Translations under genes and position numbers: made by a program
The notes under the pieces: model-generated
What the model saw: the letters and a program-made list of their open reading frames with translations, nothing else
Database searches by the model: none
Told to the model about the DNA's origin: nothing
Assembly (NCBI RefSeq): GCF_900091465.1
Contig: NZ_FMHV01000002.1
Location: forward strand, 6,944,001 to 7,008,000
Direction: 5' to 3'
Length of the DNA: 64,000 nucleotides
Source: Micromonospora rhizosphaerae
Lineage (GTDB): Bacteria; Actinomycetota; Actinomycetes; Mycobacteriales; Micromonosporaceae
Shown here: piece after piece, positions 39,589-60,222 of the stretch
Position numbering within the stretch: the stretch's first letter is position 1
Layout of the letters: each line of letters starts with the position of its first letter

Positions 39589-40394
39589 TCCAACCGCACA
39601 GCTGCACGCCCCGGCCGAGCCATCCGCCGGGGCGTCTTGCTGTCCACCGCCAGGGCGGCGCGGCGGAGGACCAGGTCGGCGAGTTCGGGGGCGTCGGTGA
39701 GCGGGCCGGCCACGGCCACCGCGCCGGCAGCCCGGGCCGCCGCCACGACCGCGTCATGGAAGCGGCCGGGCGCCAGGAAGTAGGCGGCCACCGCCACCCG
39801 CCGGGCGCCGGCCGCGCGCAGCCGGGTCACCGCCGCACCGGTGGACGGGGGCGCCGCCGAGGCGTACGACACCCGGCAGGGCACCCCGAGCTCCCCGCCC
39901 AGGGCCGCGGCCACCCGGCCCACCGAGCCGCGGGCGTGCGGATCGCGGGTGCCCGCCGCCGCCAGCACCAGCGCGTCGAACCGGCCCGGGTCCGCCTCGG
40001 CCAGCCGGCGGCGCAGGGCGGCCAGCAGCGCGGCGTCCACCGCAGCGTCCGCCGGGCCGAGCACGTCGGTGACCCGGACGTCCATCGCCGGACCGGGCTC
40101 CCGGGCCGCGGCGACCGCCGCCGGGATGTCCACCCGCCGGTGGTACGCGGCGGTGAGCAGCAACGGCACCAGCACGGCCTGCGGCCGACCCGCCTCGGCG
40201 AGGCCCCGCAGCACCGCGGTCGGCCCCGGCTCGGTGTGGTCCAGCCAGCTCGGCAGCACCGTCGTGCCGGGACGGGCGGCCGCCACGGCCCGGGCCAGCG
40301 CCCGGGTCGCCTCGGCCGCCCGTGGATCACGGCTGCCGTGGGCGACCAGCACCACCGGGTCGGCAGCGGGGGCGGTCAGACGTGCAGGCCGCAC
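39576..40394 (-). CDS. Sirohydrochlorin chelatase-like protein (CbiX family)
   Basis: 272 residues with two tandem CbiX-like domains. The first has VLVAHGSRDP and TAAYHRRVDI with both expected histidines. The second keeps the shape (LAAAGTRDPHARGSV, AYFLAPGRFHD) but has Ala-Gly in place of the first His. It should insert iron into sirohydrochlorin to make siroheme, the cofactor of the sulfite reductase in the same operon. GTG 40394 overlaps the 3' end of cysH by 19 bp. The 3' end overlaps the end of whiB1 by 13 bp on the opposite strand. Confidence 0.88.
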   Translation of the reverse strand: MRPARLTAPAADPVVLVAHGSRDPRAAEATRALARAVAAARPGTTVLPSWLDHTEPGPTAVLRGLAEAGRPQAVLVPLLLTAAYHRRVDIPAAVAAAREPGPAMDVRVTDVLGPADAAVDAALLAALRRRLAEADPGRFDALVLAAAGTRDPHARGSVGRVAAALGGELGVPCRVSYASAAPPSTGAAVTRLRAAGARRVAVAAYFLAPGRFHDAVVAAARAAGAVAVAGPLTDAPELADLVLRRAALAVDSKTPRRMARPGRAAVRLDQAE

Positions 40395-41137
40395 TCGGTC
40401 TTCTCGAACATGGCCCACCGGCCCGCCCGCGGGTCCTCCCCCGCCTTCGTGCGGCGGGTGCAGGGCCAGCAGCCGATCGAGCCGTAGCCGCGGCTGAACA
40501 GCTCGTTGACCGGGATGTCGTACCGGGAGATGTAGGCGTCCACGTCCCGCTGGCTCCAGGCCGCGATCGGGTTGACCTTGACCTTGCCGCGCCGGGCGTC
40601 GAAGGCCACCACCGGCGTGTTGGCCCGGGTCGGCGACTCGTCCCGGCGCAGCCCGGCGGCCCAGGCGTCGTACCCGGTGAGAGCCCGCTCCAGCGGCTCC
40701 ACCTTGCGCAGTTGGCAGCAGTCGTCCGGGGACTTGTTGAACAGCCGCGGGCCGTACTGGCCGTCCTGCTGCCCGACCGTCATCCGGGGACGGATCGAGC
40801 GCACGTTCACGGGAAGCCGCCGGGCCACCTCGTCGCGGACCCGCAACGTCTCCGGGAAGTGCAGGCCGGTGTCCAGGAAGATCACATCGACGCCGGGCGC
40901 GACCCGGGAGACCAGGTGCGCCAGCACCGCGTCCGCCATCGAGCTGGTCACGCAGAACCGGTCACCGAAGGTGTCGGCCGCCCAACGGGCGATCTCCAGC
41001 GCCGGGGCGCCCTCCAGCTCCCGGCCGGCCGCCTCGGCCAGCGCGCGCAGCTCCTCGGGGTCGCGCCGCGCCGGGTCGACCGGCGTCGGGCCACCGATCC
41101 CGACCAGGCCCAGGTTGGCCGCGGAGCCCAGAGTCAT
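40376..41137 (-). CDS. cysH: Adenylyl-sulfate reductase (assimilatory)
   Basis: 253 residues. DDCCQLRKVEPL and IGCWPCTRR provide the paired cysteines for a [4Fe-4S] cluster, marking an APS rather than PAPS reductase. ECGLH at the C-terminus has the catalytic cysteine, and VTSSMADAVLAHL is the nucleotide loop. It reduces activated sulfate to sulfite. ATG 41137 is chosen. A GTG at 41194 overlapping the previous stop would add 19 residues translated from a 56-bp repeat element, with no family counterpart, so it is less likely. No strong ribosome site precedes the ATG. Confidence 0.92.
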   Translation of the reverse strand: MTLGSAANLGLVGIGGPTPVDPARRDPEELRALAEAAGRELEGAPALEIARWAADTFGDRFCVTSSMADAVLAHLVSRVAPGVDVIFLDTGLHFPETLRVRDEVARRLPVNVRSIRPRMTVGQQDGQYGPRLFNKSPDDCCQLRKVEPLERALTGYDAWAAGLRRDESPTRANTPVVAFDARRGKVKVNPIAAWSQRDVDAYISRYDIPVNELFSRGYGSIGCWPCTRRTKAGEDPRAGRWAMFEKTECGLHV

Positions 41138-41142
41138 CTGTG

Positions 41143-41198
41143 CTGGCTTTTCGTTCGCGACTGCGGGGCTCGCAAGCTCACTCCTCGCGCTCACCGGG
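41143..41198 (-). repeat. 56-bp REP-like repeat, copy in the sulfur operon
   Basis: On the minus strand it matches the tandem units at 59.2 kb at 52 of 56 positions. It fills the gap between the small CxxC gene and cysH, and that gene's TGA stop lies at its sixth to eighth bases. Confidence 0.9.
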
Positions 41199-58129: not shown

Positions 58130-59212
58130 CTGACGAGCAGGCGGCGGGAGTACGACGAGGAGGACGTACGGGTCCGACCCGGGAAGTCCTCGCGCCCGCG
58201 TACGCGCACCCGCCCCCGGCACGAGAACGCGGTGGACGGCTTCGTGATCGCCGTCGACCGGGGCCGGTACACCTGCGTGCTGCCCGACGTCGGGCCGGAG
58301 GGGCCGACCGTGACCGCGATGCGGGCCCGCGAGCTGGGGCGCAAGTCGGTGGTGGTGGGCGACCGGGTCGCGCTGGTCGGCGACACCTCCGGCGCGGCCG
58401 GGGCGCTGGCCCGGATCGTCCGGATCGCCGAGCGCAGGTCGGTGCTGCGCCGCACCGCCGAGGACGACGCGACCACGACCGAGGGGCGACTGGAACGGGT
58501 CGTGGTGGCCAACGCCGACCAGTTGATGATCGTCAGCGCGCTGGCGGACCCGCCACCGCGTACCGGCTTCATCGACCGCTGCCTGGTGGCCGCGTACGAC
58601 GCCGACATCGAGCCGCTGCTCTGCCTGACCAAGGCCGACCTGGCCGGCCCGGAGGCGGTGCTCGGCTACTACACCGAGCTGGAACTGCCGTACGTGCTGA
58701 TCCAACCGGACTCCGACCTCGACGCGCTGCGCACGCTGCTCGCCGGCCGGATCTCGGTCATGGTGGGGCATTCCGGGGTGGGCAAGTCGACGCTGGTCAA
58801 CCGGCTGGTGCCGGAGGCGGACCGGGCGGTCGGCACGGTGAGCGCCATCGGTCGCGGCCGGCACACCTCGACCAGCGCGGTCGCGCTGCGACTGCCACCG
58901 GCACCCGGCGCGAAGGGAGACCCGGGCTGGATCATCGACACCCCCGGGGTGCGCAGCTTCGGGCTGGCGCACGTCTCGGCGGACAGCCTGCTGCACGGCT
59001 TCCCCGACCTGGTGGAGGGGACGGTGAACTGCCCCGCCAACTGCCAGCACACCGCCGACGAGGCGGACTGCGCGCTGGACGCCTGGGTGGCGGCCGGCAA
59101 GGCCGACCAGCGCCGGCTGGCGTCGTACCGCCGGCTGCTGGCCTCCCGGGCCGGCGAGGTCGACCCGCGCGGCGAGCCCACCCAGCGCGGGCCCGGCGAG
59201 CGCGAGGAGTGA
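58130..59212 (+). CDS. rsgA: Ribosome small-subunit-dependent GTPase RsgA
   Basis: 360 residues from a CTG start. Circularly permuted GTPase: G4 in LCLTKADLAG comes first, then the P-loop GHSGVGKST, then DTPGVRSFGL. The zinc site CPANCQHTADEADC follows. The N-terminal OB fold begins at FVIAVDRGRYTC. No ATG, GTG or TTG exists between the aroA stop and codon 35 (GTG 58232). The preceding residues SRRREYDEEDVRVRPGKSSR resemble the N-terminus of mycobacterial Rv3228, so CTG 58130 with upstream GGGGGG is proposed. The last residues PGEREE come from a 56-bp repeat. It matures the 30S subunit. Confidence 0.85.
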   Translation: MTSRRREYDEEDVRVRPGKSSRPRTRTRPRHENAVDGFVIAVDRGRYTCVLPDVGPEGPTVTAMRARELGRKSVVVGDRVALVGDTSGAAGALARIVRIAERRSVLRRTAEDDATTTEGRLERVVVANADQLMIVSALADPPPRTGFIDRCLVAAYDADIEPLLCLTKADLAGPEAVLGYYTELELPYVLIQPDSDLDALRTLLAGRISVMVGHSGVGKSTLVNRLVPEADRAVGTVSAIGRGRHTSTSAVALRLPPAPGAKGDPGWIIDTPGVRSFGLAHVSADSLLHGFPDLVEGTVNCPANCQHTADEADCALDAWVAAGKADQRRLASYRRLLASRAGEVDPRGEPTQRGPGEREE

Positions 59213-59247
59213 GCTTGCGAGCCCCGCAGTCGCGAGCGAAAGACCAG
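59192..59247 (+). repeat. 56-bp REP-like repeat, tandem copy 1
   Basis: Begins inside the rsgA C-terminus and contains its TGA stop. It can fold as GCTTGCGA/TCGCGAGC with one G-U pair around a 9-nt loop. Confidence 0.92.
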
Positions 59248-59303
59248 CCCGGCGAGCGCGAGGAGTGAGCTTGCGAGCCCCGCAGTCGCGAGCGAAAGAC
59301 CAG
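59248..59303 (+). repeat. 56-bp REP-like repeat, tandem copy 2
   Basis: Identical to copy 1 at all 56 positions. Confidence 0.92.
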
Positions 59304-59357
59304 CCCGGCGAGCGCGAGGAGTGAGCTTGCGAGCCCGGCGGTCGCGCGAAAGACCAG
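59304..59357 (+). repeat. REP-like repeat, degenerate tandem copy 3 (54 bp)
   Basis: Same unit with two substitutions and a 2-base deletion in the second half, at 55 bp before hisN. Confidence 0.88.
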
Positions 59358-59399
59358 CGCGGCGATCCGCCCGCCGGAACGTGGCGCCGGGACGATCGT

Positions 59400-59405
59400 T
59401 ACCGT
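59400..59405 (+). promoter_or_regulatory. -10 box TACCGT, leaderless hisN
   Basis: TACCGT ends 7 nt before the ATG at 59413. Confidence 0.6.
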
Positions 59406-59412
59406 TTCCGGC

Positions 59413-60222
59413 ATGACCGGGTACGCCGCGGACCTCGCTCTCGCCCACCTGCTCGCCGACCGGGCCGACGCCGTCGCCACGGCCCGGTTCCGCGCCCTGG
59501 ACCTGCGGGTCGAGTCGAAGCCGGACCTGACCCCGGTCTCCGACGCGGACACCGCGGTCGAGCGGGAGATCCGCGGCCTGCTTGCCGAGCACCGCCCGGG
59601 CGACGGCCTGCTCGGCGAGGAGTACGGCGAGCAGCCGGCGGCGGCTCCGGGCGGGCGGCGCTGGGTGGTCGACCCGATCGACGGCACCAAGAACTTCGTC
59701 CGGGGGGTGCCGGTCTGGGCCACCCTGATCGCGCTGCTGGAGGGGGATCGGCCGGTCCTCGGCCTGGTCTCCGCCCCGGCGCTGGGCCGGCGCTGGTGGG
59801 GCGCGCTCGGCGCCGGGGCGTACGCCGGACCGGACCTCGCCGGCGGCACGCCGATCCGGGTCTCCGCGGTGAAGGACCTCGCCGACGCCAGCTTCTGCTA
59901 CTCCTCGCTCACCGGGTGGGAGGAGGCCGGCCGGCTGGACGCGATGCTGCAGATCATGCGGGACAGCTGGCGCAGCCGGGCATACGGCGACTTCTACGGC
60001 TACATGCTGCTGGCCGAGGGGGCGCTGGACGTGATGGTCGAGCCGGAGCTGTCGCTCTGGGACATCGCCGCGCTGGTGCCGATCGTCACCGAGGCCGGCG
60101 GTACCTTCACCGATCTGGCCGGACGCCCCGCGCCGGCGGGCGGCGAGAACAGCGCGGTGGCCAGCAACGGCCTGCTCCACGCCGACATCCTGGGCCGCCT
60201 CGGTCGGCCGGCCGAGCGTTGA
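59413..60222 (+). CDS. hisN: Histidinol-phosphatase, inositol monophosphatase family
   Basis: 269 residues. The metal-binding motifs are LLGEEYGE (Glu), WVVDPIDGTKNFVRG (DPIDGT) and ELSLWDIAALVPIVTEAGG (WD...GG). The block GVPVWATLIALLEGDRPVLG fits the HisN subgroup of actinobacteria, which removes phosphate from histidinol phosphate. Inositol-1-phosphatase activity is the alternative. It is transcribed from its own leaderless promoter just after the repeat cluster. Confidence 0.87.
   Translation: MTGYAADLALAHLLADRADAVATARFRALDLRVESKPDLTPVSDADTAVEREIRGLLAEHRPGDGLLGEEYGEQPAAAPGGRRWVVDPIDGTKNFVRGVPVWATLIALLEGDRPVLGLVSAPALGRRWWGALGAGAYAGPDLAGGTPIRVSAVKDLADASFCYSSLTGWEEAGRLDAMLQIMRDSWRSRAYGDFYGYMLLAEGALDVMVEPELSLWDIAALVPIVTEAGGTFTDLAGRPAPAGGENSAVASNGLLHADILGRLGRPAER

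Follow-up and report, generated by a model that had tools for sequence, protein, structure and literature searches.

The 64,000-nucleotide stretch analysed here (the window) comes from the 7.18 Mb, three-contig genome of Micromonospora rhizosphaerae. It carries rsgA, the gene for the ribosome small-subunit-dependent GTPase A, with the histidinol-phosphatase gene hisN downstream of it, and a head-to-tail repeat at 59191-59356 overlaps the end of rsgA (Table 1). This repeat comprises three units with a 56-bp consensus (3.2 copies, 95% matches), and the final rsgA codons, GAG CGC GAG GAG TGA, fall within unit 1, so that the open reading frame (ORF) ends ...GPGEREE*. An earlier note on this DNA had described a three-copy array in which the first two copies are identical and the third is slightly decayed; this description holds, except that the third unit is 54 bp long and not the 56 bp of the consensus. 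The window contains a further, solo copy of the same subfamily at the 5' end of the cysH ORF, which reads in frame with the copy and has an internal ATG 57 nt in.

Table 1. Features of the window at the rsgA array and at the solo copy in cysH.
Feature	Position	Strand	Remarks
cysH (phosphoadenylyl-sulfate reductase) ORF	40379..41194	-	NF002537, 275.1 bits (cut-off 154)
Solo copy, subfamily of the rsgA array	~41138..41194	-	mini-ORF VSARSELASPAVANEKPAQ open into the next ORF
rsgA (ribosome small-subunit-dependent GTPase A)	58232..59212	+	ORF list; TIGR00157, 146.4 bits (cut-off 100)
5' target flank CCAGCGCGGGCCCGGCGA	59182..59199	+	partial repeat of the flank at each unit's 3' end
Unit 1, 56 bp	59191..59246	+	conserved body from GCGCGAGG, 59200
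Unit 2, 56 bp, same sequence as unit 1	59247..59302	+	
Unit 3, 54 bp	59303..59356	+	2-nt deletion and 2 substitutions
Closing target-flank copy CCAGCGCGGCGA, then TCCGCCCGCCGG	59354..59365	+	like the rsgA tail of relatives
hisN (histidinol-phosphatase)	59413..60222	+	TIGR02067, 286.7 bits (cut-off 275.15)

We compared the end of rsgA among 80 named relatives, 48 of them Micromonospora (the closest ones included) and the remainder from other genera of the same family (Actinoplanes, Paractinoplanes, Salinispora, Plantactinospora and a few more); the tail was readable in 78 of these, L095 and L096 being the two in which it was not. The protein ends in NPGDPL-x-G-x in 23 of the 78, and GGCGATCCGCCCGCCGG, which lies downstream of the array in the window, matches the rsgA tail of such relatives by eye. 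An EREE tail is found in one other relative, M. yasonensis (L065; ...NPREREE*), which bears a single unit at a seemingly identical spot in rsgA, and none of the readable repeat-free orthologues ends in EREE. The earlier proposal that unit 1 supplies the last residues, PGEREE, and the stop codon is therefore correct for EREE and the stop and incorrect for PG, which the relatives show to be rsgA's own. Two relatives (L072 and L083) nonetheless have a similar end, GEE* with GGCGAGGAGTGAGCCGG, which resembles the leftmost part of the 40-nt subfamily described below; these are possibly decayed units or possibly chance, and for L072 a weak core match was the sole indication.

From this comparison, the element entered the C-terminal tail of rsgA at GGCGA, with the removal of approximately DPLAGS and the gain of EREE and a stop. 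Since this target lies inside the tail, the last residues were swapped and the stop was supplied by the element. The repeat had been thought to add a short peptide, which does not suit rsgA, where an end like ...PGDPLAGS* became ...PGEREE*, a replacement and not an addition. The rsgA copy is also atypical in its position inside a C-terminal tail, whereas most copies occupy a stop/start junction (below); its target is CGA and not TGA, and a GCGA start is seen in 6 of the 96 arrays analysed below. In Plantactinospora endophytica (L107), rsgA ends at GTCGAGTAG, and repeats resembling CGAGTAGCGGAGTTA come after it; these may belong to a separate repeat family with a TAG stop as its docking site.

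Dispersal and anatomy of the repeat family

Searched with at most three mismatches, a 22-bp core of the unit has 30 matches in the host genome and none in the reversed control. The right half common to the units, GAGCCCCGCAGTCGCGA, identifies 57 units spread over 41 host-genome loci at up to two mismatches; at three mismatches this tail pattern gives 113 matches versus 111 for the reversed control (a control that was not split by mismatch number), and because such matches are swamped by noise, only the 57 units were used. The whole-genome search that the earlier note had proposed thus finds the repeat dispersed beyond rsgA. Forty of the 41 loci were read, and the left end could be scored at 38. 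When relatives were included, 138 loci were available, of which six lack a scorable left end. Removing 36 orthologues from the other 132 left 96 non-orthologous arrays (38 from the host genome), which hold 145 units.

The cores of these 145 units have three main lengths, 35 nt (V1, the rsgA type; 38 units), 40 nt (V2; 75 units) and 38 nt (V3; 29 units), with three units differing. V1, V2 and V3 share the left-hand sequence GCGCGAGGA and the right-hand sequence CCCGCAGTCGCG, both of which also served as the anchors for finding units. Arrays consist of one to four units, and the spacing between units is 54-60 bp in 47 of the 49 gaps within arrays. No terminal inverted repeats of the element could be seen by eye.

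A 26-bp core, again with at most three mismatches, is present in 149 of the 151 genus genomes, with no reversed-control match in any of them; the two genomes without it (G053 and G073) do carry the exact short core TGAGCGCGAGGARYG. In a separate draw, all 62 genus genomes contained this short core, with 8-86 copies per genome and at most one for the reversed control. Several other genera of the family are also rich in it, with 58 copies in g15 (G164), 38 in g36 (G185), 17 in g37 (G186) and 3-24 in g32 (including G181 and G206), so the element may extend beyond one genus, and many other genera of the family have few copies or none. Outside the family, the short core reaches at most four copies per genome (reversed control up to three), with no excess in the other families of the order. 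A tandem repeat of ~81 bp that contains GTGAGCGCAGCGAGC was observed in a genome of another family (G335; L298 and L304). Our search of the open-access literature did not turn up a Micromonospora paper describing such a repeat, which is weak evidence given that scope; the available part of the single Micromonospora paper that mentions interspersed repeats counts 27 interspersed and 4,100 tandem repeats and describes none of them (PMC4392142).

Docking at codons, empty sites and duplicated flanks

The coding frame upstream of each array was called by a codon model based on 25 window ORFs and not from annotation, and gene starts were called likewise. By this measure, the TGA of the element's 5' xTGA is the stop codon of the upstream gene in 65 of the 96 arrays versus 57 of 1657 control xTGA sites drawn from the same 96 loci (Fisher 6e-60); the relatives' arrays had been chosen with a TGA-containing pattern, and the control sites are TGA sites too. 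The host genome alone shows the same docking on the stop frame (21 of 38 arrays versus 61 of 1394 TGA sites, P = 8e-18), the comparison figure coming from an earlier TGA control on 58 of the 138 loci that gave 36 of 774 for the relatives. In the other arrays the upstream frame is frame A (that of the xTG) in 10 cases, frame C in 10, antisense in four and unclear in seven. The family as a whole thus docks at the ends of reading frames, as had been supposed for the rsgA array.

A mini-ORF, (V/M)SARSE..., begins at the xTG of the same 5' xTGA. Its 3' end and a start codon in the downstream frame form a 4-nt overlap in 57 of the 96 arrays and a 1-nt overlap in seven; in 20 the mini-ORF is fused in frame to the downstream gene, and in six a start lies within 30 nt; two arrays are antisense to the downstream gene, two show another arrangement and two are unclear. 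Antisense orientation is seen in four arrays with respect to the upstream gene and in two with respect to the downstream gene. A Shine-Dalgarno (SD)-like 4-mer is located 4-14 nt before the xTGA that ends the mini-ORF in 48 of 62 arrays, while 500 shuffles gave a mean of 18.8 and a maximum of 29. Bare junctions have the -4 overlap as well, and it may thus have been copied with the target; it is compatible with translational coupling but does not show it.

Two junctions illustrate how occupancy varies among relatives. At purK|purE, where 61 genomes were searched and 30 loci were read (host genome included), the xTGA overlap is bare at 12 loci, a unit can be recognised at 10, and eight are of other or diverged sequence and were placed in neither class; one of the 10 occupied loci has a truncated unit and two have two units, the host genome being among the latter. 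At murG|murC, 16 of 30 loci are without the element, four carry V1, nine carry V2 and one carries something else, and V1 and V2 thus occupy one junction in different lineages. Together with the element-free sites in pyrC and rsgA, these sites in relatives show insertion and not ancestry.

The 5' flank resembles the unit's own 3' tail more closely than shuffled pairs resemble each other (0 of 2000 shuffles in a set of 49 arrays; again with 92 arrays), and the excess identity is found in the three positions that precede xTGA (z = 7.4, 3.0 and 3.8), with none clear farther upstream. A suffix of 8 nt or more is common to both flanks in 14 of 92 arrays (1000 shuffles: mean 0.84, never above 4), and some flank duplications are longer, with 14 nt in L195 and 13 nt in L146 and L344. 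In Micromonospora sp. C31 (L118) a decayed unit lies directly behind the rsgA stop, and 19 of 20 nt that end in the stop are duplicated. Our reading of this flank repeat is a target-site duplication, typically of NNNxTGA (~7 bp), that would decay with time.

We consider it likely that the 56-bp unit represents one of three subfamilies of a short, non-autonomous mobile repeat of Micromonospora that inserts at xTGA and behaves like the mycobacterial interspersed repetitive units (MIRUs). Insertion would occur at an xTGA, usually where a stop and a start codon meet or overlap, in the orientation of the genes, and would duplicate the target, typically NNNxTGA and sometimes more. The TGA of the upstream gene would be kept, and the mini-ORF would run from the same xTG through the element and terminate at the 3' xTGA, overlapping the downstream start by 4 nt. 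A run of purine-rich sequence (such as ..GAAAGG..) located 4-14 nt ahead of the downstream start is a putative ribosome-binding site. The operon could in this way remain translationally coupled, which would make insertion cheap. Tandem units would arise later, by local duplication. The sequences themselves demonstrate dispersal, docking, orientation, element-free sites, duplicated flanks and variable copy number. That the element moves by transposition, that the purine-rich stretch is used by ribosomes and that the flanking genes are coupled in the cell we infer from this arrangement of sequence. Counterpoints to the MIRU-like explanation are that 20 of the 96 arrays are in frame A or C, with four more antisense and seven unclear upstream, that the duplication is short and variable, that terminal inverted repeats are not visible by eye and that a search for PF01797 (below) gave no mobilising enzyme.

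The bias toward junctions could have a different cause, namely that the element inserts at any xTGA without preference and that harmless copies at junctions are the only survivors, in which case the bias would reflect selection and not the choice of an enzyme. The copies inside genes of the host genome (L013, L026 and L027; see below) are all in an open frame, as this idea would have it, nothing decisive speaks against it, and we give it a chance only a little short of even; it is compatible with the MIRU-like explanation, as it concerns only the cause of the junction bias. We think it unlikely that the repeat is not mobile at all but an old operon spacer or translational regulator that was selected and has spread by recombination between copies. 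A function of this kind could explain placement at junctions, and old orthologous copies do persist, for example in pyrC, but element-free sites at purK|purE and murG|murC, the lineage-dependent subfamilies at the single murG|murC junction and the locus-specific flank duplication all argue against it.

Copies inside genes and other known repeats

Three of the 40 host-genome loci that were read lie in frame inside genes, those for dihydroorotase (L013), a UvrD/PcrA-like helicase (L026; this match is below curated cut-offs) and a TIGR03084-family protein (L027), and at one further locus (L030) the element forms a C-terminal extension of a beta-glucosidase. In the dihydroorotase gene pyrC (L013, L227-L256), an 18-codon insert is present in 19 of 30 loci, including that of the host genome and one in which it is shortened, and is lacking in 11; it stays in frame even in strongly diverged DNA. 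Uncorrected pN/pS for the 18 full-length inserts is 0.38 versus 0.19 in the 60-nt flanks on each side, and the insert is thus under relaxed purifying selection, being constrained, though less so than its flanks. Upstream of rnc in the host genome (L009:1493-1711), four 54-bp units constitute a 73-residue ORF of near-identical 18-residue repeats (MSARSELASPAVANEEVA x4), whose end shares a 4-nt overlap with the start of RNase III; it is a possible new gene that consists of the repeat alone.

The nearest case that we found of a short repeat that inserts in frame is that of the Rickettsia palindromic elements (RPEs), which are ~150 bp long, lie within genes in almost half of the cases, and insert in frame into protein genes, where they encode a conserved peptide (PMC10969869). 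The present family differs in its location mostly at gene junctions, its 54-60-bp units, its lack of a fold above shuffled sequence (below) and its host, Micromonospora. It is improbable, in our judgement, that this is an RPE-like coding element with in-frame insertion into genes as its main route: the in-gene copies and the C-terminal extension would agree with such a route, as would frame A, which is open in 98.6% of the 145 units, but the majority of copies lie between genes, and all three antisense frames are equally open (98.6-99.3%), so that openness alone is weak proof of coding.

The repeat had also been called REP-like, with an imperfect hairpin in each unit, and a RAYT transposase gene had been named as something to look for. 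REPs are palindromic and extragenic. The window units do not fold better than their dinucleotide shuffles (z = 0.39, 0.39 and -1.04; 200 shuffles each), nor do slices from L009 and L147 (z = 0.78 and 0.60; slices from L014 and L141 were excluded, the unit not being properly framed), and no Rfam family matches the units at its gathering score. Just behind the units, at 59360-59420, Rfam's M23 RNA scores 18.8 bits where its gathering score is 41.2, a match that was taken as chance. The RAYT-type Y1 transposase domain (PF01797) has no match in the host genome, while a control matched in five of 14; across the genus it matches in 44 of 151 genomes versus 149 of 151 for the 26-bp repeat core. No mobilising enzyme was found in this search, which covered PF01797 only. 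With no fold, no Rfam family and no Y1 transposase in the host genome, the repeat is not a REP moved by RAYT, and neither the hairpin nor the REP label survives. Although the family is, like REPs, short, dispersed and sometimes tandem, and some Y1 transposase does occur in the 44 genomes, RAYT (TnpA-REP)-driven transposition of a classical REP/BIME element is scarcely credible for a genome with 57 units and no PF01797 match, in which the units lack a hairpin signal and nearly all copies are co-oriented with their neighbour genes and touch or overlap their start and stop codons.

MIRU-like layout and its meaning

MIRUs are without dyad symmetry, and in work by Supply et al. from 1997 they are said to share the orientation of the neighbouring genes; we know of no established answer as to their mode of movement. 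According to a 2025 review, they have been known since 1997 (reference in PMC12548453), are apparently mobile, insert at start codons with their ORF coupled to the gene at -4 nt, and probably have a small effect on expression when they insert (PMC12548453). Units of 77 and 53 bp lie in tandem between senX3 and regX3 (PMC4213456). The range of MIRUs is given as only M. leprae and the M. tuberculosis complex by one source (PMC4213456) and as many mycobacteria by the other (PMC12548453). The copy number of the 77-bp unit has been reported for vaccine strains (PMC9392950), and the available parts of that paper and of PMC12817950 contain nothing decisive.

The family described here is like MIRUs in unit size (53- to 77-bp units there, 54-60-bp spacing here), in its tandem arrangement between operon genes and in its variable copy number, with one to four units per array and zero, one or two at purK|purE. 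It is also like them in its co-orientation with neighbouring genes and, to judge from the fold z-scores, in the absence of dyad symmetry. A further likeness, of layout only, lies in the downstream start, which is at -4 in 57 of the 96 arrays, at -1 in seven and fused in 20, and in the bare xTGA of relatives. It differs in its host genus, Micromonospora and not Mycobacterium, in that copies are also found in frame inside genes, and in that flank duplication is documented here. The family may thus be described as the published MIRU layout in another genus, a likening of layout and not of sequence. A guessed MIRU-type motif gave scattered matches in 24 genomes of other families, with no clear kinship; these matches, which fell mostly on gene starts, with a few in tandem repeats of unrelated kind, were rejected.

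Beyond the MIRU-like explanation, we put forward tentatively, and would sooner doubt than assert, that Micromonospora has its own class of operon-junction transposon, which would depend on an enzyme that recognises xTGA overlaps, generate a variable duplication of 7 to ~20 bp and carry a portable codon cassette. If this is true, an 18-codon peptide would have become a conserved loop of dihydroorotase, four tandem copies would have become a 73-residue mini-gene coupled to rnc, and the mycobacterial MIRUs would belong, as one of its branches, to a strategy more widespread in actinobacteria. The variable tandem arrays are candidate markers for strain typing. With tens of copies per genome, empty sites and visible duplications, target choice, duplication length and coupling are directly testable in soil bacteria, and pyrC provides a case of a mobile repeat that has turned into part of an enzyme of pyrimidine synthesis.
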